Assembly (NCBI GenBank): GCA_021813405.1
Contig: JAKAKS010000022.1
Location: 124,001 to 188,000 of the forward strand
Length of the DNA stretch: 64,000 nucleotides
Direction of reading: 5' to 3'
Source: Nitrospirota bacterium
Lineage (GTDB): Bacteria > Nitrospirota > Thermodesulfovibrionia > Thermodesulfovibrionales > JdFR-88
The translations under genes and the position numbers were made by a program. A model generated the notes under the pieces. That model saw only the letters and a program-made list of their open reading frames with translations, had not been told where the DNA came from and ran no database searches. Positions 8,399 to 33,407 of the stretch are shown piece after piece (the stretch's first letter is position 1; each line of letters starts with the position of its first letter).

Positions 8399-9001
8399 TT
8401 GTCGCAAAACCGTTATAAGCCATTATGTTTTGGCACCGCTTTGGCGGTGTTAACCGCCCTCGTTATCTTCCCGCCGGTTGCGGCCATGGCTGCGGGCATA
8501 AGCGGATTCTCGATCAAAATACCATCCGGGCAAACCAACCCCCCGGATCAGCTGTTAGTCTCTGCAAAGGTGGCCCCCGGCAACCGTTTCTTAAGGGACC
8601 TGCAGGACGGCATGCAGAAAAGGCTAATTTTTTATGTGGATATCTTCAGGAAATGGCATAGCTGGCCCGACGAGTTTGTGCTGGGAGCAAAGATAGAGCG
8701 CCGTCTGGAATGCGACAATGTAAAAGGGGAATATACATTGACAAACAGCGAGGCAGGCAAGACCAGCCAGACAAGATACAAAAACTGCGGCGGTGTAATG
8801 GGGAATGCTTTTATCCTTAAGAATGTAAAGCTTTCCGATTTAAAAGAGCTTACAAGCGGCAAATATATAGTGAGGGTGACCGCAGAGAGCAAGGCTGGCA
8901 ATATGTCTCCCATTTTAGGACAGATATTCTTTTTTATACAGGACTATGAATTCAAGGCCGTAGCTGAGTCGGGCATATTGTACCTGGGGACAAAGCCGTG
9001 A
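8399..9001 (+). CDS. DUF4390 family secreted protein
   Basis: A 200-aa protein with an N-terminal signal-like segment (LAVLTALVIFPPVAAMAAG), followed by a soluble domain whose pattern (RLIFYVDIFRKWHSWPDEFVLGAKIERRL) matches DUF4390 proteins. Those are commonly found next to NtrY/NtrX-type two-component genes, and the same order is seen here. The best start is TTG at 8399, since the next in-frame Met (in AMAAG) would remove the signal peptide. Its stop overlaps the GTG of the next gene by 4 bases, so the two are probably translationally coupled. Role unknown; a periplasmic input or accessory protein for the kinase is an inference. Confidence 0.75.
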   Translation: MSQNRYKPLCFGTALAVLTALVIFPPVAAMAAGISGFSIKIPSGQTNPPDQLLVSAKVAPGNRFLRDLQDGMQKRLIFYVDIFRKWHSWPDEFVLGAKIERRLECDNVKGEYTLTNSEAGKTSQTRYKNCGGVMGNAFILKNVKLSDLKELTSGKYIVRVTAESKAGNMSPILGQIFFFIQDYEFKAVAESGILYLGTKP

Positions 9002-11049
9002 AGATTAAAAAAATGCTTTACTTTGCCATACCCTCTGCCATAGTGCTGGGGCTTTTCCTTCCCGTGGAGATAAGGTTCATAAGGCACGGGGAGTTCCCCG
9101 GCGACCTGCTATACATGCTTCTTTTAAACCTGAACCTGCTTGCCCTGTGCATGCTTGTGTACCTGGTGGTAAAGGGGTTTCTGGAGCTGTTTTTGGGGAT
9201 GAAAAACAGGGTCATAGGCTTCAGGTTCAGGGCCAGGATAATTTTCATCTTCACCCTGCTTACGCTTGTGCCGGTGGTGCTTGTTTATATAGTGGCAAGC
9301 GGGCTTGCCATGAAGTACATGGACAAGATATTCCATGCGCAGTTCAGAAATCCGCTTGAAAACTCGCTGAGGCTGGCCAAATCCGTCTATGACGAGGAAA
9401 AATTGAGGGCCCTGGGCATAGCCGGGGCGGCCGCAAACGGGGCCCATGAATTCGGCCCGTATTACAAGGTTTACAGGCTCAGAAAAAACCAGCTTCCGGC
9501 GCAGCCGCAGCCGGCCATCACGGACGCCTTTTCAGGCAAGCGCTCCGCCGAGGTGCTAACCACCAGCGCCGGAGACATAATAACGGCGGCCGTGCCGGGG
9601 CCGGAAGGCTCTGTGGTTATTGTAAACACTACGCTTCCTGCGGAGTTTTCCTCGGATGTTGAAGGCATCAGAAGTTCCAGGGAGGCCCTTATAAAACTGG
9701 AGAACTGGCGTGTGCCTATGAGGGCCAATTTCTATCTTGTGCTTGGGCTTATAGCCCTTACCATCACATTTACCGCGCTCTTTACGGCCCAGAGACTGGC
9801 AAGGTCCATCACGGAACCTGTTACGGACCTTGCGAAGGCAACCGGGGAGGTGGCAGGCGGCAATCTGGACATCCGGGTGAGCCCAAGGGGCTCCGACGAG
9901 ATGGGGCTTTTAATAGATTCCTTTAATCAGATGGTGGCGGAGCTAAAGGAATCGAAAAGTTCGCTGGCCGGGGCATACGAGGAGTCCGACAGAAGAAGGC
10001 TTTTCATGGAAGGCATATTGGACAATATACAGACAGGCGTCATCTCCCTTGGCCCGGCAAACGACGTGCTTACGATAAACCCGGCCGCCTGCAGGATACT
10101 GGGCCTGGAGGCTGCCCTGATAGCAGGGAAGGGTTACGAGGACCTGCTTGTAAACGTGCGCTCGGACGAGCTTAAATCTCTGATAAAACAGATAAACACA
10201 AGGACCATACAGTTCCTGGAAAAAGAGCTTTGGGTGGACATCGAGCACAAGCTGGTTCTGCTGCGGGTGTTTATCTCCGGGCTGCGGGACTCGAAAGGCA
10301 ACAGCGTTGGCATGCTGGTTGTCTTTGACGACCTTACGGATGTTATACGTGCGCAAAGGGCGCTGGCCTGGCAGGAGGTGGCCAGAAGAATAGCCCATGA
10401 GATCAAAAATCCTCTTACCCCGATAAAATTGGTCACAGAGCGAATGATGAAGAAGAGGGCCGAGGGACATGCGGATTTTGAAGCTGTCTTTGCGCGCTCT
10501 ACAAAGACCATCATCAAGGAAGTGGACAGCCTTAAGAGGCTGGTGGACGCCTTCTCGCGCCTGGGAAAGATGCCCGAGGCCAAAAAGAAACCTTCCGATG
10601 CCGCCGCGCTTATAGATGAAGTGGTTTCGCTTTATCACGACTATGACGGGCTTTCCATAAATGTGGAAAGCCCGACTGCCAGCGGCAAGGATGGAAAAAC
10701 GCTTCCGATTGCGGACCTGGACCCCGAACAGTTTAAGAGGGCGCTCATAAACATAATCGACAATGCCCGCGATGCGATGGACAACAAAGGTGTCATATCG
10801 GTTAAAATATCCGTTGATGAAGCGGCCGGGAAACTCTTTATCGAAGTAGCCGACACCGGTACGGGCATCCCGGAAGAAGACAGGGAAAAGCTCTTCGAGC
10901 CTTACTTCTCCACGAAAAAGGACGGCACGGGGCTTGGGCTTGCCATAGTGCACAAAATAATCTCCGAACATAACGGCCATATTCGGGTAAGCGAAAATAC
11001 TCCTCGCGGCTCCGTGTTTACCATAGAGCTGCCTGTATGTGCAGGTTAA
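8998..11049 (+). CDS. NtrY-like membrane sensor histidine kinase
   Basis: 683 aa. Three hydrophobic segments lie within about residues 8-105, followed by an extracytoplasmic region, another helix near 246-268 and a HAMP domain (ARSITEPVTDLAKATGEVA). A PAS-like region (FMEGILDNIQTGVISLG) comes next, then HisKA with H-box RIAHEIKNPLTPIKL and a HATPase domain with N box NIIDNARDAMDN, DTGTGIPEEDR and GTGLGLAIV. The H-box sequence is characteristic of NtrY kinases. It starts at GTG 8998, overlapping the previous stop (GTGA). The regulator gene follows immediately, so the pair is a cognate two-component system. Signal unknown; NtrY is linked to nitrogen or redox responses in other bacteria. Confidence 0.9.
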   Translation: MKIKKMLYFAIPSAIVLGLFLPVEIRFIRHGEFPGDLLYMLLLNLNLLALCMLVYLVVKGFLELFLGMKNRVIGFRFRARIIFIFTLLTLVPVVLVYIVASGLAMKYMDKIFHAQFRNPLENSLRLAKSVYDEEKLRALGIAGAAANGAHEFGPYYKVYRLRKNQLPAQPQPAITDAFSGKRSAEVLTTSAGDIITAAVPGPEGSVVIVNTTLPAEFSSDVEGIRSSREALIKLENWRVPMRANFYLVLGLIALTITFTALFTAQRLARSITEPVTDLAKATGEVAGGNLDIRVSPRGSDEMGLLIDSFNQMVAELKESKSSLAGAYEESDRRRLFMEGILDNIQTGVISLGPANDVLTINPAACRILGLEAALIAGKGYEDLLVNVRSDELKSLIKQINTRTIQFLEKELWVDIEHKLVLLRVFISGLRDSKGNSVGMLVVFDDLTDVIRAQRALAWQEVARRIAHEIKNPLTPIKLVTERMMKKRAEGHADFEAVFARSTKTIIKEVDSLKRLVDAFSRLGKMPEAKKKPSDAAALIDEVVSLYHDYDGLSINVESPTASGKDGKTLPIADLDPEQFKRALINIIDNARDAMDNKGVISVKISVDEAAGKLFIEVADTGTGIPEEDREKLFEPYFSTKKDGTGLGLAIVHKIISEHNGHIRVSENTPRGSVFTIELPVCAG

Positions 11050-11051
11050 AC

Positions 11052-12428
11052 ATGTCAAACGTCCTGATAATAGACGATGAAGAAAATATAAGGGAGAGCC
11101 TTTCGGACATACTCTCGGATGAAGGCTATCACGTCCTTACCGCGGCCTCAGCCGAGCAGGGGCTGGACCTCATCCGGCGGGATCCGCCCGACCTGGTGCT
11201 TCTGGATATCTGGCTTCCCGGCATGGACGGCGCGCAGGCGCTGAAAGAAATTGCAAAGATGGGCGAGGCGGGCCAGCCCCCGATGCCAGTTATAATGATA
11301 ACCGGCCACGGTACGATAGAGCTTACCGTAAAGACCATCCGCGACGGGGCGTATGATTTTCTGGAAAAGCCGCTCTCCATGGACAGGGTGATACTCACGG
11401 TCAGCCGCGCGCTTGAGAAGTCCTGGCTTGAAAGCGAGAACCTGGCGCTGAAGAGTTCATTAAAGGCCAAAACCCTTCTTGTTGGCAATTCCCCGTTAAT
11501 GGCAGATCTCAAGGCGCGTATTGAGATGGCTGCGGCAAGCGCAAGCAAGGTGCTTATCACAGGTGAGTCCGGCAGCGGCAAGGAGCTTGCGGCAAGGCTT
11601 CTGCATTATCTTTCCCCCAGGGGCAAGATGTCTTTCGTGGAGATCAATTGCGCGGCAATCCCGCAAGAGCTTATAGAAAGCGAGCTTTTCGGCCACGAAA
11701 AGGGCGCGTTCACCGGGGCCGCGGAGGCCCGCAAGGGAAAATTCGAGCTTGCCGACAAGGGGAGCCTGTTCCTTGATGAGGTTGGCGATATGAGCCTTGC
11801 CACGCAGGCCAAGGTTTTGAGGGCCATCGAGACGCAGGAATTTCAGAAAGTGGGCGGGTCCAGATCCATCAAGGTGGATGTGCGGCTTATAGCGGCAACA
11901 AACAAGGACCTGGCTAAGGCGGTCAAAAAAGGCGAATTCAGGGAAGACCTTTATTACAGAATAAACGTGATCCCCATAGAGATGCCGCCCCTGCGTGCGC
12001 GCCGGGAGGACATACCCGCGCTGGCCGAGCATTTCCTTGCAAGCCTTTCGGCGGAGTACGGGCGCGCTCCCAAGAAAATATCCAGGGAGGCCCTGAAGAA
12101 GCTCACTCAATACAACTGGCCCGGAAACGTCCGCGAGCTTAGAAACGTAATCGAACGGCTTCTCATAATGGGCAATTCGGGGTCAATAGATGAGAAGGAT
12201 ATCTCGCTTCCCGGAGAGACATCCGGGGGTGAGGATTATTCAAAGTTTGGCGGGCTCAAGGAGGCCAGGGACGCCTTCGAGAAGGATTTCATATTGAAGA
12301 AGCTGGCCGAAAACAGCTGGAACGTCTCCCGCACGGCCGAGGCTATAGGCGTGGAGCGCTCCAACCTTCACAGGAAGATTAAAAGCTACGGTATAGACGC
12401 CCCGCGCGGCGGGGAGCTTGAAGAGTAG
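11052..12428 (+). CDS. NtrX/NtrC-family sigma-54-dependent response regulator
   Basis: About 458 aa. The receiver domain starts [15 protein letters not shown] with phosphoacceptor Asp in [10 protein letters not shown]. The AAA+ domain has Walker A GESGSGKE and the sigma-54-contact loop GAFTGA. A C-terminal Fis-type helix-turn-helix ([17 protein letters not shown]) completes it. I chose ATG 11052, which has AGGT five bases upstream and places the receiver at the usual position; an ATG at 11037 adds MCRLN with no ribosome site. It is the likely partner of the preceding kinase. Targets are not deducible from position alone. Confidence 0.92.
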
Positions 12429-18898: not shown

Positions 18899-18936
18899 AA
18901 AAAAACCTGCCCCCGTTATAAATATATGGAAGCAGG
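18899..18936 (-). terminator. Riboswitch-controlled terminator (expression platform)
   Basis: On the minus strand CCTGCTTCC pairs with GGGGGCAGG (9 bp including two G-U pairs, 13-base AT loop), followed by seven T directly before the crcB ATG. The 5' arm CCTGC is also the 3' arm of the aptamer P1 stem, so the two structures are mutually exclusive. Ligand-stabilised P1 should block the terminator and turn crcB on. The GCAGG arm also contains the only SD-like sequence, so translation may be controlled too. Confidence 0.85.
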
Positions 18937-18999
18937 AGTCATAAGCCCCGGCAATACCGGAGACGGCCGAGGCGGTTAAAGGCGAACCCCATCGCCTGC
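18932..18999 (-). promoter_or_regulatory. Fluoride riboswitch (crcB motif) aptamer
   Basis: Minus-strand RNA: P1 GCAGG (18999-18995) with CCTGC (18936-18932). Next is the conserved GGCGATGGGGTTCGCC hairpin, then TTTAACCGCC, a P3 hairpin (CTCCGG-TATTG-CCGGGG) and the conserved TTATGACTCC before the P1 3' arm. Order, conserved bases and location immediately before crcB match the fluoride riboswitch class. It is an ON switch sensing fluoride, with its own promoter upstream. Confidence 0.9.
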
Positions 19000-19002
19000 A
19001 GG

Positions 19003-19031
19003 AGAATATCAGAGCAGTGGCAGGAAGTCAA
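19003..19031 (-). promoter_or_regulatory. Promoter of the fluoride riboswitch-crcB transcript
   Basis: On the minus strand TTGACT (19031-19026), a 17-base spacer ending in TGA, and TATTCT (19008-19003). The expected start falls a few bases before the aptamer P1 stem, exactly where a riboswitch transcript should begin. Confidence 0.72.
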
Positions 19032-23159: not shown

Positions 23160-24227
23160 ATGCCCAAGGTAATGATGCAACCGGCCTCTTACGAAGACTT
23201 GCGCCCGGCAATAGACCGGGCCTTCGAACTTTTTCCGGTAAACCTGCGCGGCAAAAAGGTGCTTATAAAGCCCAATGTCCTCAGGGCATCCGAGGCGACG
23301 GAAGGCATAGTCACCAATCCCGCCGTGCTTCAGGCCGTGGTGGAAAAAGTGGAATCCGCAGGGCCGGCCTCGCTGATTGTTGGCGACAACCCGGGGCTCT
23401 TCGATTACGGGGCAAACGAAAACAGTTTCATAAAAACAGGGCTTATGGAAGCGTGTAAAGGTTATTACCGGAATATCGGAAACGACTCCGTAAAACTGCC
23501 TTTTAACCCTGCGTTCATGCCTTCGGTAAGCGTATCACGCGCCGTAACGGAGGCCGATATAGTCATCAGCCTGCCAAAGTTCAAGACGCACGGACTAACC
23601 GTGATCACCGGGGCCATAAAAAACAGCTATGGCATTCTGCCGGGCGCGCAGAAGGCGACGCTGCACAAATTGTCGGGCGGCCCGGAGCGCTTTCAGGAAA
23701 TAGTGGTGGACGTCTTCAGGCTGCGCGTGCCCGATTTATTCATAGTGGACGCGATTGTAGGGATGGAGGGAAACGGCCCCGCGTCGCCTGAGCTGAGGGA
23801 CATCGGGCTTGTGCTTGCATCCGATAACGCCGTGGCAATGGATGCGGTTATAGCAACAATGATGGGGTGCCAGCCAGGCCGTCTGCGCTTTCTGCAAAGG
23901 GCCAAGGAGCTTGGGCTGGGGGATTACGACATGAAGACGATTGAGGTAATCGGCGAACTCAGGCCGCTGCCCGGCTTCAAATTGCCGCCGCTGGGCGGCG
24001 AGGCCCTGCTTGCAAATGAAAATATCCAGGCAATAATCCGTGGCCGGGCGGCACTGCGGCCAAAAGCCGATCCCGCGCTGTGTATCTCCTGCGGAATCTG
24101 CATCGGGCATTGCCCTGTGCAGGCACTGTTTTTAAAAGACAATCTGCCGGAGGTTGCCCGTGAGAAGTGTATTGCCTGCTTCTGCTGCCAGGAGATGTGC
24201 CCCGAGAAGGCGATTACGCTTCAGTAA
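23160..24227 (+). CDS. DUF362 protein fused to a two-cluster ferredoxin domain
   Basis: 355 aa from ATG 23160 (MPKVMMQPASYED), with GGAG upstream; the longer frame from 23109 begins inside the promoter region. Residues 1-290 are DUF362 (KVLIKPNVLRA, GDNPGL, SLPKFKTHGLTVITGAIKN split around PKFKTHG). Residues 305-355 carry two 4Fe-4S motifs, CISCGICIGHCPVQAL and CIACFCCQEMCPEKAI. Such DUF362-ferredoxin proteins are common in anaerobes and presumed to act in electron transfer or metallo-enzyme assembly. It shares its control region with the small winged-helix gene. Confidence 0.85.
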   Translation: MPKVMMQPASYEDLRPAIDRAFELFPVNLRGKKVLIKPNVLRASEATEGIVTNPAVLQAVVEKVESAGPASLIVGDNPGLFDYGANENSFIKTGLMEACKGYYRNIGNDSVKLPFNPAFMPSVSVSRAVTEADIVISLPKFKTHGLTVITGAIKNSYGILPGAQKATLHKLSGGPERFQEIVVDVFRLRVPDLFIVDAIVGMEGNGPASPELRDIGLVLASDNAVAMDAVIATMMGCQPGRLRFLQRAKELGLGDYDMKTIEVIGELRPLPGFKLPPLGGEALLANENIQAIIRGRAALRPKADPALCISCGICIGHCPVQALFLKDNLPEVAREKCIACFCCQEMCPEKAITLQ

Positions 24228-24480
24228 ATAAGGCATAAGAACAACTTGCCATTCAGCTTTTGGTTCTGCTGGTTTTTTTACCTTTACAGCCCTCCTGTTT
24301 TCTGCTAATATCCTGCCCCTCACATAAAAAACCTAAACATTCCACTTTAAAAACAATAAGTTATTGTGTGCCATTTGACGCAGTGATAATTGTGAATTGC
24401 CCCTGCTTCTCTGAAGTTTGATATCAAGAAGAATTCTTTTGACAGTTGCCGGTAAATAGTAACAGAGTGAAAAAAATATA

Positions 24481-24518
24481 AAAATGAATAAATCTTCATT
24501 TTTGGCATAGAAACTGCT
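24481..24518 (+). promoter_or_regulatory. Sigma-54 promoter with flanking inverted repeat
   Basis: TTGGCATAGAAACTGCT (24502-24518) keeps the essential GG and GC at the correct 10-base spacing of -24/-12 promoters (consensus TTGGCACGN4TTGCT). Start predicted near 24529. An 8-bp inverted repeat AAAATGAA/TTCATTTT (24481-24488 and 24495-24502) abuts the -24 box. AAGAATTCTT, about 95 bases before the start, could be an enhancer site. Confidence 0.7.
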
Positions 24519-24556
24519 AGTTGCACTGAAGTTGAATTTTTTTCCTAATCTCAGTA

Positions 24557-24588
24557 GATATGGGCGCGAACTCCGACGCGCCCATATC
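24557..24588 (+). other. Stable hairpin in the cytochrome mRNA leader
   Basis: Perfect 12-bp inverted repeat GATATGGGCGCG / CGCGCCCATATC with an 8-base loop. There is no T-run on either side, so it is not an intrinsic terminator. It lies about 28 bases into the predicted transcript, where it could protect the 5' end or regulate translation. Confidence 0.7.
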
Positions 24589-24732: not shown

Positions 24733-25680
24733 ATGAAGAAAGCTTTATCCTTATTGAGTTTTTGCATGGTTTTTCTGCTTGCCCTGTTTTTTTCAGGTAT
24801 ACAGGCACAAGCGGAGAGTAACGGCGGATACGCAGGCCCCAATACCTGCAGGAAATGCCATGAATACGAGTACATGGCTTATTCGCAATCGGTTCACGCC
24901 AAAACAGCCGTACCCAACAGCCCCGCAAATGTGCATGCGTGCGAAACCTGCCACGGGGCGGGCTCTGCACATGCGGCACAGGGCGGCGGGGGCGGCATCT
25001 TTGCGTTCAACAAGGAACACAGCGCAAAGGAAAAAGCGGCAAAATGTCTTGCCTGCCATGCGCAGACCACATGGGCCGCTTTCTGGAGCCAGGGCAAGCA
25101 CGCAAGGGAAGGCCTCGCCTGCACAGACTGCCATTCCATGCACCACGGCGGCTGGAAGTTCCTGAAGGGCGTAACTGGCAAATATGACGTGTACAATCTG
25201 TGCTTCCAGTGCCATAAGGACATAAGGAACATGGTGCACAAGCAGTCGCACCATCCGATACTTGAGGGGAAGGTGTCCTGCGTGGACTGCCACAACCCGC
25301 ACGGAACGTTCAATCGCCGGATGCTCCGGGGCGACAGCGTCAACGAGCTTTGTTTCAAGTGCCACCCGGAAAAGAGGGGCCCGTTCATGAACGAGCACCC
25401 GCCCGTGGAGGAGAACTGCCTTACATGCCATACTCCTCATGGCAGCAACCATAACAAGCTGCAAACGGAAAAGATAATGGTCCTCTGCCAGAGCTGCCAT
25501 GTTATCGACGGCCATCAGACCGGTCCGTTCACCTCGTTCCAGTCGTTTAATCCGCCGACTACGGGCCCCAGCAATCTGTATGCAAGCCCCAGGGTTGTAG
25601 GGCGTATGTGCACTAACTGCCATACAAACATCCACGGATCGAACTACCCGGGCGAGCTCGGCGAATGCTTCATAAGATAG
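24733..25680 (+). CDS. Decaheme c-type cytochrome (MtrA/DmsE/PioA type)
   Basis: 315 aa with signal peptide (LLSFCMVFLLALFFSGIQAQA) and ten CXXCH motifs: CRKCH, CETCH, CLACH, CTDCH, CFQCH, CVDCH, CFKCH, CLTCH, CQSCH and CTNCH. Size, heme number and spacing match the periplasmic decaheme cytochromes that plug an outer-membrane barrel and move electrons across it (MtrA, MtoA, PioA, DmsE). A strong SD precedes ATG 24733. The barrel gene follows 14 bases after the stop, confirming the conduit pair. Direction of flow (metal oxidation or reduction) cannot be read from sequence. Confidence 0.93.
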   Translation: MKKALSLLSFCMVFLLALFFSGIQAQAESNGGYAGPNTCRKCHEYEYMAYSQSVHAKTAVPNSPANVHACETCHGAGSAHAAQGGGGGIFAFNKEHSAKEKAAKCLACHAQTTWAAFWSQGKHAREGLACTDCHSMHHGGWKFLKGVTGKYDVYNLCFQCHKDIRNMVHKQSHHPILEGKVSCVDCHNPHGTFNRRMLRGDSVNELCFKCHPEKRGPFMNEHPPVEENCLTCHTPHGSNHNKLQTEKIMVLCQSCHVIDGHQTGPFTSFQSFNPPTTGPSNLYASPRVVGRMCTNCHTNIHGSNYPGELGECFIR

Positions 25681-25694
25681 GAGGGGGGACACTA

Positions 25695-28019
25695 ATGAAA
25701 TTTAAAACAGCAATAGCAAGCGCGGCCCTGGCACTGCTGCTGATGGTGACCAGCGCGTTCGCCGCCGATTTCAGTTATTTCTCATCCGGGGTCCAATTAA
25801 ACGGCTCAGCAGCGGTCGCCAATGCGCCGGAGGGCCAGGTGCACGGGAATGTAAACCTGACACCAGCGCTGATTGACATTACTGGCAATAAGGCCCAGTT
25901 CAGCCCGTACAGGGACATTACCGGCAATGGCGGGTTCTATACGGACATCCATCTTGGCTACGACAGCAACAATTACTGGTGGAAGCTGGACACAACGGAC
26001 CTGGGCTACAAGGATCAGTTCGATCAGCTAAGCGGCGGCCTTTACGGAAGGCTCCAGGGCAAGTTGTACTTCGACCAGATACTGCACAATATCACATTTG
26101 GCGCCATAACCCCGTTTGCCAGCCCCGGCAGCACTAATCTTGTCTCCGGCGATGGGCTGTGGAACGGTTCCAATCCTGTTGGTGAGCCATATCTTAATAC
26201 TTCCACCTGGCACCCGTTTGACTATTCAACCCGCAGGGACCGGATTGGCGGCAGCCTGAAGGTAAACCTGGCGGATGACATTTACGCTGAAGTCAGCGTG
26301 ATGAACGAGCATAAAAGCGGCTTATATCCGATGGGCGGCTATTATATAGAGGTGCCGGCCCCCATAGACTGGTGGACGCAGGACTATGATACAGCAGTGG
26401 TCTACCAGGCCAGGCCCCTGTTCCTAAAAGCCAGCTTCAATTTCAGCGACTTTACCGACAGCCTGCAATCCATTCAATTCCAGGTGCCGCACCAGAGTAC
26501 TGGGTCCAGCTCATTGCTTGCCAGTGGTTTTCTGCAGGACACGCTGACCATGCCCGGGGACAACAAGGATTATAAGGTAGGCCTGGAGGGCTCACTGGAG
26601 CTGCCTTATTACTCACATTTCAACTTTAACGTCAACACCTCCCATGAAACGTCAAGCGCGAATCTGATTTCGCCGGCCCTGGCCAACATCTTCCAGGGCT
26701 CGAACGTTAACCCTGCCAACGACCACTATGTTGTAAGCGAAAGCTCATCTACCTTTGACGGCACGCGCAATGTCACCGACCTGGACTTTGCGCTTACCAG
26801 CAATCCCATGAACTGGTTGTACGGCAGGGTATTTTACAAGTATTACGACTCCAAGAACGACTCGCAGGACGTGGTTGTATTAAACGGCGCCGGCCAGTAC
26901 CTGGACCCGTTTGTTTTCAACTACAATACGAACACCGCCGGCGCAAACCTGGCCTTTACACTGCCGGCGCATTTCCATCTGGACACGGAATACGAGTTCG
27001 TCAAAACGGCCAGGCCGGATACCATATGGAACCTCCCCAACACCAACGACAACGTATATTATGCGGAACTCAGGTGGACCGGGATGGACATGATTACGCC
27101 CAAGGTCTCCTTCCGGGATTTCAACAGGACCGGCGCGGGGATAGGCGTACCATCGCAGAACAGGGCTGACGTTGACTTTACCTCGGCGGATAGTTACGCC
27201 ACTGAAATGGAGTGGTTCAACATAGCGCGCCGGCACACCAAAACCTATAAGGCTGGTGTCGATATAACCCCGAATGATGCGCTGGATGTGGAGCTGGATG
27301 GCCTGTACACCACGGATTACTACCCCAGCACCATCATCGGCGCGCTGTCTTCCAAGACTGCCGAGGCCGATGTGGATGCCAGCTACAAGGTGGCAACTAT
27401 CGGTAAGCTTAACGGTTATTTCGATCTCCAGAACATAAGGAAGGACATATTCTTCAACAACAGCAACCACGGCAATTTTGCGGCAACTTCTCCGGAGACC
27501 ACGTCGAATTACAACACGGACGAGTACGTAAAGGACAACGAGTATGAGTTTGGAGCCGGGGCCGAGATATACCTGATTCCTGACAAGCTCACGTTCAACC
27601 TCCGGTACGACTATATGAACTCCGACGGATTGAATGACGAGACCATTCTCCTCAACGGGGCCCTGGATACACTTGGCGGTGCAAGGCCGCCCTTCCCGGC
27701 GGGAGCCGACAACAACAACATAGACATGCCGTATGATCAGTACAAGCAGTCCTCGGTGAACGGAAAGCTCACGTATAATGTAACGAAAAACCTCGCGATC
27801 ACCGGCGGTGTTGAGTTTGACCATTATACGTACAACGACTCTGCTTTCAACAACTATCAGAACGTGTACTACAACAACAATTACAATCCCGTGGGGCAGG
27901 TCAACAACGGCAACACCACATCCAGCACCTCAGCGGGCCCGTATCTGCTTGGCGGGGCATATGCGTCACCGGGCTTCAACGCGCATGTTGAGTTTGTGAC
28001 GGTGGCTTACAGTTTCTAA
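25695..28019 (+). CDS. MtrB/PioB-family outer-membrane beta-barrel
   Basis: About 774 aa from ATG 25695, which has GAGGGGGG upstream; the longer frame overlaps the cytochrome end. A signal peptide (AIASAALALLLMVTSAFAA) is followed by alternating beta strands rich in Tyr, Asn and Asp throughout. It ends VEFVTVAYSF with the terminal Phe expected of a BAM substrate. Length and coupling to a decaheme cytochrome match the MtrB/PioB sheath. No extracellular MtrC/OmcA-type cytochrome is adjacent, the arrangement of iron oxidisers such as PioAB and MtoAB. An intrinsic terminator follows. Confidence 0.88.
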   Translation: MKFKTAIASAALALLLMVTSAFAADFSYFSSGVQLNGSAAVANAPEGQVHGNVNLTPALIDITGNKAQFSPYRDITGNGGFYTDIHLGYDSNNYWWKLDTTDLGYKDQFDQLSGGLYGRLQGKLYFDQILHNITFGAITPFASPGSTNLVSGDGLWNGSNPVGEPYLNTSTWHPFDYSTRRDRIGGSLKVNLADDIYAEVSVMNEHKSGLYPMGGYYIEVPAPIDWWTQDYDTAVVYQARPLFLKASFNFSDFTDSLQSIQFQVPHQSTGSSSLLASGFLQDTLTMPGDNKDYKVGLEGSLELPYYSHFNFNVNTSHETSSANLISPALANIFQGSNVNPANDHYVVSESSSTFDGTRNVTDLDFALTSNPMNWLYGRVFYKYYDSKNDSQDVVVLNGAGQYLDPFVFNYNTNTAGANLAFTLPAHFHLDTEYEFVKTARPDTIWNLPNTNDNVYYAELRWTGMDMITPKVSFRDFNRTGAGIGVPSQNRADVDFTSADSYATEMEWFNIARRHTKTYKAGVDITPNDALDVELDGLYTTDYYPSTIIGALSSKTAEADVDASYKVATIGKLNGYFDLQNIRKDIFFNNSNHGNFAATSPETTSNYNTDEYVKDNEYEFGAGAEIYLIPDKLTFNLRYDYMNSDGLNDETILLNGALDTLGGARPPFPAGADNNNIDMPYDQYKQSSVNGKLTYNVTKNLAITGGVEFDHYTYNDSAFNNYQNVYYNNNYNPVGQVNNGNTTSSTSAGPYLLGGAYASPGFNAHVEFVTVAYSF

Positions 28020-28045
28020 AAGCGAACGTTTTCTGACTGATTAAG

Positions 28046-28077
28046 GGGGAGGGTGTAAAAACACCCTCCCCTTTTTT
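28046..28077 (+). terminator. Intrinsic terminator of the porin-cytochrome operon
   Basis: An 11-bp perfect stem (GGGGAGGGTGT with ACACCCTCCCC), AAAA loop and six T. It is 27 bases after the barrel stop. Confidence 0.95.
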
Positions 28078-29070: not shown

Positions 29071-29157
29071 TAATGCGTTGCAAACAGGAAAAGAAATCAT
29101 GTTTTGCAGTAATGCCCCCCGTATAAGATGTCTTTTTGCCGGCCGGGAAATTCCATC

Positions 29158-31398
29158 ATGAACAGCGCAAGAAAACCCTGCAATACGGAATTGCTGGTGG
29201 AATTCAGGGATGAGATTGCCAGGGAGCAGGTGCGCATCGCGTTTGCGGACCTCCCAACGATGCAGACGGCCTCTTTCATTGTGGCCCTTGTTCTTTCCGG
29301 CCTGGTCCGCAATATTGTTGCCCACGCAAACATTCTGGCCTGGAATTCAATGATTCTGTCGGTTGTAATTGGCAGGGTTGCGCTTTTTTACCGGTTTAAA
29401 CGGGTGCGGGAAGGCGCGTTTGACGGGCAGTACTGGGGCAGGGCATATCTGGGCCTGGCGCTTTTATCGGGCGTGGTCTGGGGGCTTTCCGCATTCATAA
29501 TCTTTCCGGCTGGCAATCCGGCGCTGATATCACTTTTTCTGCTGACGATGTTAAGCCTTTCGGCCTCTACCGTAATATCCCATTCATCGATAAAGCCGGG
29601 CCCCGCCGCATGGGTGGCGCCAACCTTAACTCTGTACGCAATCCGGTGCGCTATGGAGAAGGGCGCTTTTGGGTATCCCGTAAGCTTTTTAATAATTCTT
29701 TACATGATTACCGTGTTGCGCTACGCGGTTGTCAACAACAGGGCCGTTGCCTCCGTTGTCTCGCTGAAGTTTGAAAATCTTGGGCTCCTTAAAGAGCTGA
29801 GGCAGAAAAACGAAACGCTCCAGCGCGCAAACGAGGCCGCCCTGGATGCCAACATGGCGAAGTCACGCTTTCTGGCGATGGTAAGCCACGAACTGCGGAC
29901 ACCGCTGAATGCTATCATAGGTTTCGGGGAGCTGGCCCAGGAGCAGGGCGCCTCCGGCCAGACTGCCCAATACCTCGACATCATAGAAAAATCCGCCATG
30001 CACCTGCTGGAACTGGTAAACGATCTTCTGGACCTGTCACGCATAGAGGCCGGGAAGATGGAGATTGCCGCCGAGGTATTTGACGTGCGGGACCAGATCC
30101 GCTGCCTGGAGGCGGTCTTTGCGCACCAGGCCGCCAGAAAGGGCGTTGCCTTTTCAATTACGGTTGGCGGCGGCACCCCCCCGCAGGTTACAGGCGACCC
30201 TTTGCGCTTGAGACAGGTCTTGTCCAATATAATAGGGAATGCGCTGAAGTTTACGGAAAAGGGCGCGGTGGAAGTAAATGTAACAGCCCATCCGGATGCC
30301 GGGAAGGCCTCAATCTGTTTTGCCGTCCGGGACACGGGGATCGGGATACGGGATGACAAAAAGGCAAGCGTTTTCGAAAGGTTTGCCCAGGCCGACCCGG
30401 ATATAACCAGGCTTTACGGCGGCAGCGGCCTGGGTGCGCCGGTTGCCAGGCAGCTGGCGCGGCTTATGGGCGGAGACATCACCTTTGAAAGCCGGAAGGG
30501 CGAAGGGAGCGTTTTTTACATTACAATTCCCTTTGCGCAGGCAGCCAGCAATGAAGCGCCGGTTTCTACAGACTGCCCGCCGGCCAGCGCAAGGGGAGAT
30601 GCGCGCAAAAACCAGCTGCCGCTTAAAATTCTTGTGGCGGAGGACAACCAGTTCAACCAGCGCTTTATGGTAGATGCCCTTGTTTTAAGAGGCCATGCCG
30701 TTACGCTTGCGGGTGATGGCAAAGAGGCGTTTGAAAGTTATATTCAGGCGGATGGAAGTTTCGATCTGGTATTGATGGATATAATGATGCCGGTGATGGA
30801 CGGCTATGAAGCGGCCCGGAAAATCCGCGAGGCCGGGATGCGCCGCGCCGCACCTTGCCGCACCCCGATGTTCGCGGTAACCGCAAGCAGCGGCAGCGCT
30901 GTCCAAAAACAGTGCCTTGAAGCCGGCTTTGACGGCGTAATCGAAAAGCCGGTTACTTCTGCCAGGCTGGATTATCTTCTTAAAGGCTTTTCCGGGCCTG
31001 AAGACGCCGGGGGTGGATGCTCAGTTGACAGCATTTGCACAAAGACGGCAGCCTGGTATGATGATATTTTTGATTCTGAAATGCTAAAGCCGGTCTCTGA
31101 CAGCCCCGAACGCATGGCCCGCTTTGCCGGCCTTCTGCTTAAGGACCTGGATCGGGGGATGGAACTTCTGCATCAGGCATTGGCCTCTTCAGACCACTTG
31201 GGCATAGCACGGGCGGCCCATGGCCTGAAAGGGGCAACACTGGCCGTTAAGGTTTCACAGGTGAGCGCGCTTGCCGGGGAGCTTGAAACCTATGCAAAAG
31301 AAGGAAATAATGTCAGAATAGAAAATGCCTTTGCAAGGGTGAGGGACGCCTGCGGGCAACTGCAGAGCCGGTTAAGGAAAATGGGGGCGCCGGAATGA
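29158..31398 (+). CDS. Hybrid sensor histidine kinase with receiver and HPt domains
   Basis: About 746 aa from ATG 29158 (an ATG at 29128 in the same frame is possible). Residues 1-200 contain about six hydrophobic helices. HisKA has FLAMVSHELRTPLNAIIGF, and HATPase has an N box (NIIGNALKFTEKG) and DTGIGIRDD. The usual GLGLAI is replaced by GGSGLGAPVARQL. The receiver domain (ILVAEDNQFNQR, Asp in LVLMDIMMPVMDG) precedes a C-terminal HPt domain with His in AAHGLKGATLA. A full phosphorelay in one protein. It overlaps the sigma-54 regulator by 4 bases, so that is its probable final target. Confidence 0.92.
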   Translation: MNSARKPCNTELLVEFRDEIAREQVRIAFADLPTMQTASFIVALVLSGLVRNIVAHANILAWNSMILSVVIGRVALFYRFKRVREGAFDGQYWGRAYLGLALLSGVVWGLSAFIIFPAGNPALISLFLLTMLSLSASTVISHSSIKPGPAAWVAPTLTLYAIRCAMEKGAFGYPVSFLIILYMITVLRYAVVNNRAVASVVSLKFENLGLLKELRQKNETLQRANEAALDANMAKSRFLAMVSHELRTPLNAIIGFGELAQEQGASGQTAQYLDIIEKSAMHLLELVNDLLDLSRIEAGKMEIAAEVFDVRDQIRCLEAVFAHQAARKGVAFSITVGGGTPPQVTGDPLRLRQVLSNIIGNALKFTEKGAVEVNVTAHPDAGKASICFAVRDTGIGIRDDKKASVFERFAQADPDITRLYGGSGLGAPVARQLARLMGGDITFESRKGEGSVFYITIPFAQAASNEAPVSTDCPPASARGDARKNQLPLKILVAEDNQFNQRFMVDALVLRGHAVTLAGDGKEAFESYIQADGSFDLVLMDIMMPVMDGYEAARKIREAGMRRAAPCRTPMFAVTASSGSAVQKQCLEAGFDGVIEKPVTSARLDYLLKGFSGPEDAGGGCSVDSICTKTAAWYDDIFDSEMLKPVSDSPERMARFAGLLLKDLDRGMELLHQALASSDHLGIARAAHGLKGATLAVKVSQVSALAGELETYAKEGNNVRIENAFARVRDACGQLQSRLRKMGAPE

Positions 31399-32783
31399 CG
31401 GCACGGATATTGATAGTTGAAGATAATGCCAGTTCGGCCTTCGCGCTGGAAAGCCGTCTTCATGACCTGGGATACGTGGTAAATACGGCACATTCCGCCG
31501 ATGAAGCCATGGCCACGCTGGCCCAAAAAGAAATCGACCTTGTCATCTCGGACCTTATCATGCCGGGCATGGGCGGGGTGGAGCTGCTTGAGGCGGTACG
31601 TCAAAAAGGCTTTGATATGCCGTTTGTTATCCTTACGGCCCATGGCAGCGTGGAGTCCGCTGTAAAGGCGATTAAAAGCGGCGCGTTTGATTATCTGCAA
31701 AAGGACTGCTCCGAAGATGAGCTGGCCATCATTGTAAGCCGCGCGCTGGAATTTGGCCAGCTTGCCAGGGACAGCCAATTCCGGGAGCATGTGGTCAAGC
31801 GGCATGCCTTCCAGATGATAAGGACAAACTCGCCCGCAATGGCAGAGGCCCTGAGGGCCGCTGAAAAAGTGTCGGCTTCTTCCCGCACTACGGTTTACAT
31901 ATTCGGAGAAAGCGGTGTAGGAAAAGAGGTGCTGGCCAGGTCCATCCACTTTTCGGGCGGCGGCCTGCCATCAAATTTTGTGGCGGTCAACTGCGCGTCG
32001 ATACCGGAGACACTCCTTGAAAGCGAACTCTTCGGCCATGTGAAAGGTGCATTTACCGGGGCCGAAAAGGACCGGCAGGGGAAATTTGCAATGGCCAAAA
32101 AAGGCACTATGCTGCTGGATGAGATCGGGGATATGCCGCTTGCCCTTCAGGCAAAGCTGCTGAGGGTCTGCGAGGAGCGCACATATTGCAGGATAGGTTC
32201 CAACCAGCAGATATCGGCCGACTTCCGCATTATAGCCGCCACCAACCGGGCCCTGGAGGTCCTTGTGCGGCAGGGCAAGTTCAGGGAGGACCTGTATCAT
32301 CGCCTTAATGTGTATCCAATAATAATCCCGCCTCTTCGCGAGCGCAAGGAAGACATCCCCCTGCTTGTGGAGACATTTTTCCCGATCTTCCGTCAGCACC
32401 TGGGCAAACCGATTCCGGGGATTTCCAGCAAGGCCATGAAGGTGCTGATGGCTTACGACTGGCCGGGAAACGTCCGCGAGCTACGAAATTGCCTGGAGCG
32501 AGCCGCCATCCTTGTAAACGATGAGCTGATACGGCCGGAGCACCTGGTGATACATGGGGCTGGGGGCCCAAAGGAGCAGCCTGCCGGCTATAAGGCGTCA
32601 TCAAAAGATACGGAACTGCGTCTTAAGCTTAGCGACGGCGATTTTTCGCTGGAAGCCATCGTTAACAAGGTATTAAAGGAAACACTGAAAAATTGCGGGG
32701 GCAATAAATCCCTGGCAGCCAGCCGGCTTAAAATCAACCGCAAGATGTTCAACAGGAAAGGCATAGAAGAGAGCCGGGGTTGA
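31395..32783 (+). CDS. Sigma-54-dependent response regulator (enhancer-binding protein)
   Basis: 462 aa. Receiver (ARILIVEDNASSAFALE, Asp in LVISDLIMPGMGG), AAA+ domain with Walker A GESGVGKE, sigma-54 loop GAFTGA and the RLNVYPIIIPPLRERKED block. A C-terminal Fis-like HTH (NCGGNKSLAASRLKINRKMF) ends the protein. It starts in an ATGA overlap with the hybrid kinase. A near-consensus sigma-54 promoter lies 320 bases downstream, the most likely target, leading into the DUF11 surface-protein genes. Confidence 0.93.
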   Translation: MTARILIVEDNASSAFALESRLHDLGYVVNTAHSADEAMATLAQKEIDLVISDLIMPGMGGVELLEAVRQKGFDMPFVILTAHGSVESAVKAIKSGAFDYLQKDCSEDELAIIVSRALEFGQLARDSQFREHVVKRHAFQMIRTNSPAMAEALRAAEKVSASSRTTVYIFGESGVGKEVLARSIHFSGGGLPSNFVAVNCASIPETLLESELFGHVKGAFTGAEKDRQGKFAMAKKGTMLLDEIGDMPLALQAKLLRVCEERTYCRIGSNQQISADFRIIAATNRALEVLVRQGKFREDLYHRLNVYPIIIPPLRERKEDIPLLVETFFPIFRQHLGKPIPGISSKAMKVLMAYDWPGNVRELRNCLERAAILVNDELIRPEHLVIHGAGGPKEQPAGYKASSKDTELRLKLSDGDFSLEAIVNKVLKETLKNCGGNKSLAASRLKINRKMFNRKGIEESRG

Positions 32784-33106: not shown

Positions 33107-33123
33107 TTGGCATGGCAGTTGCT
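33107..33123 (+). promoter_or_regulatory. Near-consensus sigma-54 promoter
   Basis: TTGGCATGGCAGTTGCT matches TTGGCACG-N4-TTGCT with one change (T for C), GG and GC exactly 10 bases apart. Start predicted near 33134, 40 bases before the ATG at 33174. It lies directly downstream of a sigma-54 activator gene. Confidence 0.85.
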
Positions 33124-33136
33124 TTATTAAAAGCCA

Positions 33137-33150
33137 GTGATTTAAATCAC
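33137..33150. promoter_or_regulatory. CRP/FNR-like palindrome just downstream of the sigma-54 start
   Basis: GTGATTTAAATCAC, a 14-base perfect palindrome that fits TGTGA-N6-TCACA closely when flanks are included. It is centred about 10 bases after the predicted start, a position suited to repression. Its core is identical to the palindrome at 23084-23095. Confidence 0.55.
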
Positions 33151-33173
33151 AAATAAAAACAGTGGAGAGTTCT

Positions 33174-33407
33174 ATGTCACAAAGGGCGGTTGAACAATTC
33201 ATAGGCAGGTTGATTACGGATTCCGACTTTCGCCGCAGAGCGGCCAAGAACATCGCTTTGGTTTGCGAGGAGGAGGGATACAAGCTTTCCAATGCCGAAA
33301 TCCGCATATTGGCCTCGCTTGACTACGAACGCCTTGCGCGGACCGAGGAGTTCTGGCTTGATGACGGCATCAAGAGGTTTACCGTTGGAAGTGGAAAAGT
33401 GCTTTAA
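33174..33407 (+). CDS. Small Os1348/NHLP-leader-like protein
   Basis: 77 aa from ATG 33174 with GGAGAG four bases upstream; a GTG at 33162 would lie inside that ribosome site. The sequence is helical and charged: SQRAVEQFIGRLITDSDFRR, then EEEGYKLSNAEIRILASLDY and a short tail FTVGSGKVL. The N-terminal pattern (xxVExxxGRLxTDxxFR...) resembles Os1348/NHLP-clan small proteins, related to RiPP leader peptides, though no modification enzyme is nearby. It is the first gene after the sigma-54 promoter. It may be a regulator or chaperone-like factor rather than a RiPP precursor. Confidence 0.65.
   Translation: MSQRAVEQFIGRLITDSDFRRRAAKNIALVCEEEGYKLSNAEIRILASLDYERLARTEEFWLDDGIKRFTVGSGKVL

Follow-up and report, generated by a model that had tools for sequence, protein, structure and literature searches.

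A probable sigma-54 promoter and a conserved leader hairpin upstream of an MtrAB-type electron conduit operon in Nitrospirota

Sigma-54 in electron export and the conduit operon

Control of electron-export genes by sigma-54 is already known in Geobacter, and RpoN is reported to be essential in Geobacter sulfurreducens. According to passages of one study of the Geobacter sulfurreducens RpoN regulon (PMC2725144), its promoters follow the consensus TTGGCACGGTTTTTGCT, cytochromes that pass electrons to Fe(III) belong to the regulon, and omcB is upregulated in an RpoN-overexpressing strain. The same passages describe a demonstrated RpoN promoter for the type IV pilin and activator genes that adjoin their promoters (pilR-pilA, dcuB and fdnG), and do not name an MtrAB promoter. 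In part of a second study, OrfR is given as a transcription factor regulating the omcB conduit of G. sulfurreducens (PMC4245776). The locus described here differs from these systems in belonging to another phylum and in encoding another type of conduit, composed of a decaheme MtrA and an MtrB barrel. We did not meet sigma-54 control of MtrAB-type conduits in literature titles and abstract openings, and do not claim its absence in print. What is new is the conserved hairpin in the leader, together with the persistence of the promoter through changes of the flanking DNA and of the neighbouring regulator.

We analysed a stretch of 64,000 nucleotides (the window) from a Nitrospirota genome, containing the following conduit features.

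24733..25680, plus strand: mtrA, decaheme periplasmic cytochrome of the MtrA/DmsE type (10 CXXCH motifs, 315 aa)
25665..28019, plus strand: mtrB, outer-membrane barrel of the MtrB/PioB type (PF11854, 180.9 bits, cut-off 23)
28043..28074, plus strand: terminator-like hairpin closing the mtrAB unit

A decaheme cytochrome adjoining an MtrB/PioB barrel identifies this unit as an MtrAB-type conduit. It resembles the MtrAB, PioAB and DmsEF conduits (TIGR03508, PF11854) in both genes, with mtrA scoring 242 bits in TIGR03508 (cut-off 192) and mtrB 181 bits in PF11854, and differs from them in that mtrB falls under the TIGR03509 cut-off (134 versus 240) and no MtrC-like gene is found among the annotated neighbours. 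No gene for an extracellular cytochrome of the MtrC/OmcA type was identified among the ORFs scanned between 24733 and 36898, and we do not class the unit as MtrCAB. PioAB and DmsEF likewise are not known to include an MtrC.

The promoter element and its conservation

The region upstream of mtrA contains the following features.

24429..24438, plus strand: palindrome AAGAATTCTT, not above chance, centred some 95 bp upstream of the predicted start
24480..24503, plus strand: inverted repeat, rich in A/T and reaching the -24 box, not supported as functional
24502..24518, plus strand: sigma-54 (-24/-12) promoter element TTGGCATAGAAACTGCT, predicted start near 24529
24541..24556, plus strand: single-stranded segment of the leader, TTTCCTAAYCTCNGTAG, conserved in the alignment; identity with the sister species begins here
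24557..24588, plus strand: leader hairpin, or 32-bp palindrome (12-bp perfect arms, 8-nt loop), starting 38 bp after the promoter element

The element at 24502-24518 has a GG-N10-GC core with the correct spacing, matches 10 of the 12 sigma-54 consensus positions (TGGCAY-N5-YTGCW context), and lies 215 nt before the start of the decaheme cytochrome gene at 24733. The loose sigma-54 pattern is no more frequent across the whole window than expected (43 matches versus 40.5), so a consensus match alone says little. The -24/-12 match might therefore be fortuitous, with the operon read from an upstream sigma-70-type promoter, for which a weak site with an extended -10 is present at 24283-24311, or by transcription that continues from the DUF362 gene, which ends at 24227. 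We consider this improbable, as sigma-70-like sites do not exceed chance either (5 versus an expected 4.4), and as it leaves unexplained why four species conserve the element and keep its distance from the leader hairpin almost constant.

Tests confined to the upstream region and to the genome gave the following results. Of 1000 dinucleotide-shuffled versions of the 400 nt preceding mtrA, 20 contained a site as good as TTGGCATAGAAACTGCT. A narrower pattern, TTGGCAYNNNNNYTGCW, which was chosen to cover the site at 24502-24518, occurs 11 times in the 2.9 Mb genome and its reversed form not at all; with one mismatch allowed, the counts are 122 and 55. Two of the 11 sites (L025 and L029) fall within long open frames of about 500 aa, indicating that not every match is a promoter, and another lies 64 bp 5' of a type IV pilin-like gene, the class for which an RpoN promoter has been demonstrated in Geobacter.

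Four of 12 genomes of the family, including that of the window, encode a close mtrA (81-100% identity), and rpoN is present in all four. Each of the four loci has a site at a comparable place that matches 9 or 10 of the 12 consensus positions (TTGGCATAGAAACTGCT, TGGGCATATTGTTTGCA, CTGGCACAAAAACTGCT and CTGGCATGGATGCTGCT), which in one relative (G011) is just upstream of a receiver gene. From the end of the GG-N10-GC site to the leader hairpin, the distance is 38 bp in the window and 39, 43 and 44 bp in the other loci. When the 76 nt before the leader motif were shuffled, even a 9/12 site was reached in only 35 of 5000 cases for the window, with 85, 93 and 258 of 5000 for the other three loci.

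The sister species G001 is 96% identical to the window from 24541 onward. Similarity breaks off sharply at this position: the 76 nt before it are 41% identical (shuffled mean 33%, maximum 46%), and the -24 and -12 boxes are kept despite this near-random similarity. Window DNA from 23700 to 24560 found no match in G001, whose sequence lies at the end of a short, low-coverage contig and starts 38 nt 5' of its site. Six orthologous pairs from elsewhere in the two genomes are as similar (mostly 95-98%, with 91% as the minimum) as the conduit block (96%), and on this ground we rejected the possibility that the block had recently passed between the species by horizontal transfer; L129/L128, compared as a seventh pair, proved not to be orthologous.

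Taken with its recurrence in two more distant loci (below), these data support the proposal of the initial annotation that a sigma-54 promoter precedes the decaheme-barrel operon. From sequence evidence, 24502-24518 is probably an RpoN promoter of the MtrAB-type conduit, with a start near 24529, that would be opened by an NtrC-type activator.

The initial annotation had also pointed to an 8-bp inverted repeat at the -24 box and to the palindrome about 95 bp upstream. Both exist, the repeat with arms of 9 bp (24480-24488 and 24495-24503), and we rejected both as activator sites. Shuffles of this A/T-rich region contained a repeat with 9-bp arms in 36 of 1000 cases and with 8-bp arms in 114 of 1000, and the repeat was not found by eye in the family-level relatives G002 and G011. 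A palindrome as long as AAGAATTCTT was present in 408 of 1000 shuffles.

The leader element

The initial annotation overlooked a conserved element at 24541-24588, between the predicted start and mtrA, that comprises the single-stranded motif and the hairpin. Arms of 12 bp were not obtained in any of 1000 shuffles of the leader. We modelled the four copies by covariance and searched 176 genomes of the order with the result. Each copy was recovered strongly, with E values of at most 2.4e-15; apart from the copies, only their reverse-strand echoes fell below E 0.003, and weak matches occurred in five further genomes (E 0.0037 to 0.09). Strong matches are thus limited to the four conduit loci (four of 176 genomes). 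We rejected a known riboswitch, as no Rfam 15 family reached its gathering score in the leader, the one chance-level match being STnc320 (19 bits, gathering score 50). The whole leader considered as a single fold was likewise unexceptional (z -1.31), and only the 12-bp hairpin stands out.

The arms are separated by 8 nt in all four loci, and 11 of the 12 pairs are invariant. The remaining pair changes on both sides, from A-T to G-C, a result that 129 of 500 shuffles also reach and that is not significant by itself; given that 11 pairs never vary, an RNA hairpin and a DNA operator are both possible. The palindrome at 24557-24588 could accordingly be bound as DNA by a repressor or second regulator, an alternative to which we assign an appreciable probability, well short of even: the fixed spacing and invariant pairs are those expected of a protein-binding site, whereas the palindrome sits inside the predicted transcript, has a conserved flank on its 5' side only, and contains the two-sided pair change, a weak argument given its frequency in shuffles. 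The transcript from about 24529 would carry a leader of about 200 nt, the 5' part of which (24541-24588) would present the conserved motif and the 12-bp hairpin. The role of this hairpin would probably be to shield the message at its 5' end or to serve as a binding site for a protein. The hairpin is a defined element that lends itself to testing.

The gene that follows the element is not the same in all four loci. G011 has, one after another, a kinase, an NtrC-type activator, the sigma-54 site, the leader hairpin, a receiver-only regulator, mtrA and mtrB. What lies between the leader element and mtrA in G002 looks, by eye, like a decayed copy of the receiver gene (L032:9411-9789), and no receiver frame is left in this interval in the window or in G001. 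We infer that the promoter and leader element stayed in place when the first gene, encoding the receiver regulator, was lost; the opposite direction, in which G011 and G002 gained this gene, may also apply. We tentatively suggest, as a rather unlikely reading, that the element is an undescribed regulatory leader coupled to the sigma-54 promoter, and that the two persist as a unit while the first gene, the upstream DNA and the activator are exchanged, adding a second, post-initiation control to electron export. With the same reserve, this would amount to the swapping of regulators around a fixed promoter.

Regulators and distant mtrA loci

Downstream of the conduit, the window encodes a two-component pair, followed by a second sigma-54 site.

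29128..31398, plus strand: hybrid histidine kinase (HisKA, HATPase, receiver and Hpt domains)
31395..32783, plus strand: NtrC-type response regulator and sigma-54 activator (sigma-54 interaction domain, GAFTGA read in the translation)
33107..33123, plus strand: second sigma-54 site, TTGGCATGGCAGTTGCT, 3' of the activator gene (G000:C17:157107-157123)

A short gene on the opposite strand separates the terminator-like hairpin of mtrAB from the kinase gene. As the second site is 3' of the activator gene, the kinase/activator pair lies between two sigma-54 sites. The initial annotation had counted three regulator-type genes or their partners in the window; we identified two NtrC-type activators, each with an adjacent kinase, namely the regulator at 31395-32783 with the kinase at 29128-31398, and an NtrX-like protein at 11037-12428 with a kinase at 8998-11049.

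The genome itself encodes RpoN. By its position, the regulator at 31395-32783 is the likeliest activator of the conduit promoter. Under this model, RNA polymerase with RpoN would wait at 24502-24518 as a closed complex, and the phosphorylated regulator, most likely 31395-32783 driven by the kinase 29128-31398 on a presumed signal, would open the complex by ATP hydrolysis.

We scored 13 mtrA loci for coding-strand sites, and found a site of at least 9/12 in six of them: the four loci described above, L079 (Trichlorobacter sp. MAG11; 11/12, reached by 1 of 1000 shuffles) and L076 (a 'Deltaproteobacteria' MAG; 10/12, reached by 40 of 1000). The remaining seven have coding-strand sites of only 6 or 7 of 12, and one of these loci, L077, has a 9/12 match on the other strand, which illustrates that such matches also arise by chance. 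The order-level homologues G013, G025, G045 and G044 were scored and have no sigma-54 site, indicating that sigma-54 control is not general for MtrAB.

A tblastn search of 11 loci with the window activator identified an NtrC-type activator gene in L031 (G011), L076 and L079, and none in the other eight; detection is limited by the short stretches of L078 and L030, and by the G002 contig, which ends shortly after mtrB and has a site and no activator gene in the 13.4 kb covered. An activator gene is therefore found near four of the six loci with a site (the window, L031, L076 and L079) and near none of the seven without. In L076 and L079, the sigma-54-like site is combined with a neighbouring kinase/activator pair. 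This recurrence, of a sigma-54-type activator gene adjoining the conduit in the window and in three other loci, supports the earlier suggestion that the conduit is under an enhancer-binding protein.

The activators beside the other conduits are about 40-41% identical to that of the window and are not its best matches. We thus rejected the idea that one activator orthologue stands beside all conduits, and linkage does not mean a single conserved regulator. It is conceivable, with a probability that we place clearly below one half, that the sigma-54 promoter is real and driven by another NtrC-type protein, such as the NtrX-like 11037-12428. A Pfam search of the genome gave 20 NtrC-type activator matches, 16 of them full-length or nearly so; the activator neighbouring the G011 conduit is no closer to that of the window than other paralogues are; and no upstream site in common was found, the regions before 24502, 33107 and the kinase gene sharing no striking motif (best 16-mer 12-13/16, on inspection and with no shuffle control). 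Against this alternative stands the recurrence of an activator gene beside the conduit in three other loci.

The Trichlorobacter locus L079 resembles the window, with, in this order, a kinase, a receiver-only regulator, an NtrC-type activator, a sigma-54 site, a decaheme mtrA and an mtrB barrel, but lacks a match to the leader model and its activator is only about 40% identical. The architecture of kinase, activator, sigma-54 site, decaheme cytochrome and barrel, found in both Nitrospirota and Trichlorobacter, suggests that the recruitment of sigma-54 control to MtrAB was repeated or shared. If the promoter assignment and activator model hold, this uncultured Nitrospirota group would switch on extracellular electron transfer by a two-component, ATP-driven activator, and not constitutively, resembling in this respect parts of extracellular electron transfer in Geobacter.

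Some further observations concern other sites. The second sigma-54 site, TTGGCATGGCAGTTGCT, lies about 50 bp before a gene for a 77-aa Os1348-family protein of the NHLP clan, resembling a RiPP precursor (NF038399, 55.6 bits, cut-off 40; region 33107-33407), which is followed by several large genes in a row, of which the first carry DUF11-type repeats. Elsewhere in the genome, a sigma-54 site precedes by about 40 bp a possible cytochrome gene with a signal-like segment and CXXCH (L024:1501-1640), and another precedes an 89-aa frame (L019:1501-1700) that we take to be PqqD-like; in both cases, the same 17-mer is present in G001. Finally, Rfam identified a fluoride riboswitch on the minus strand of the window at 18926-19005.
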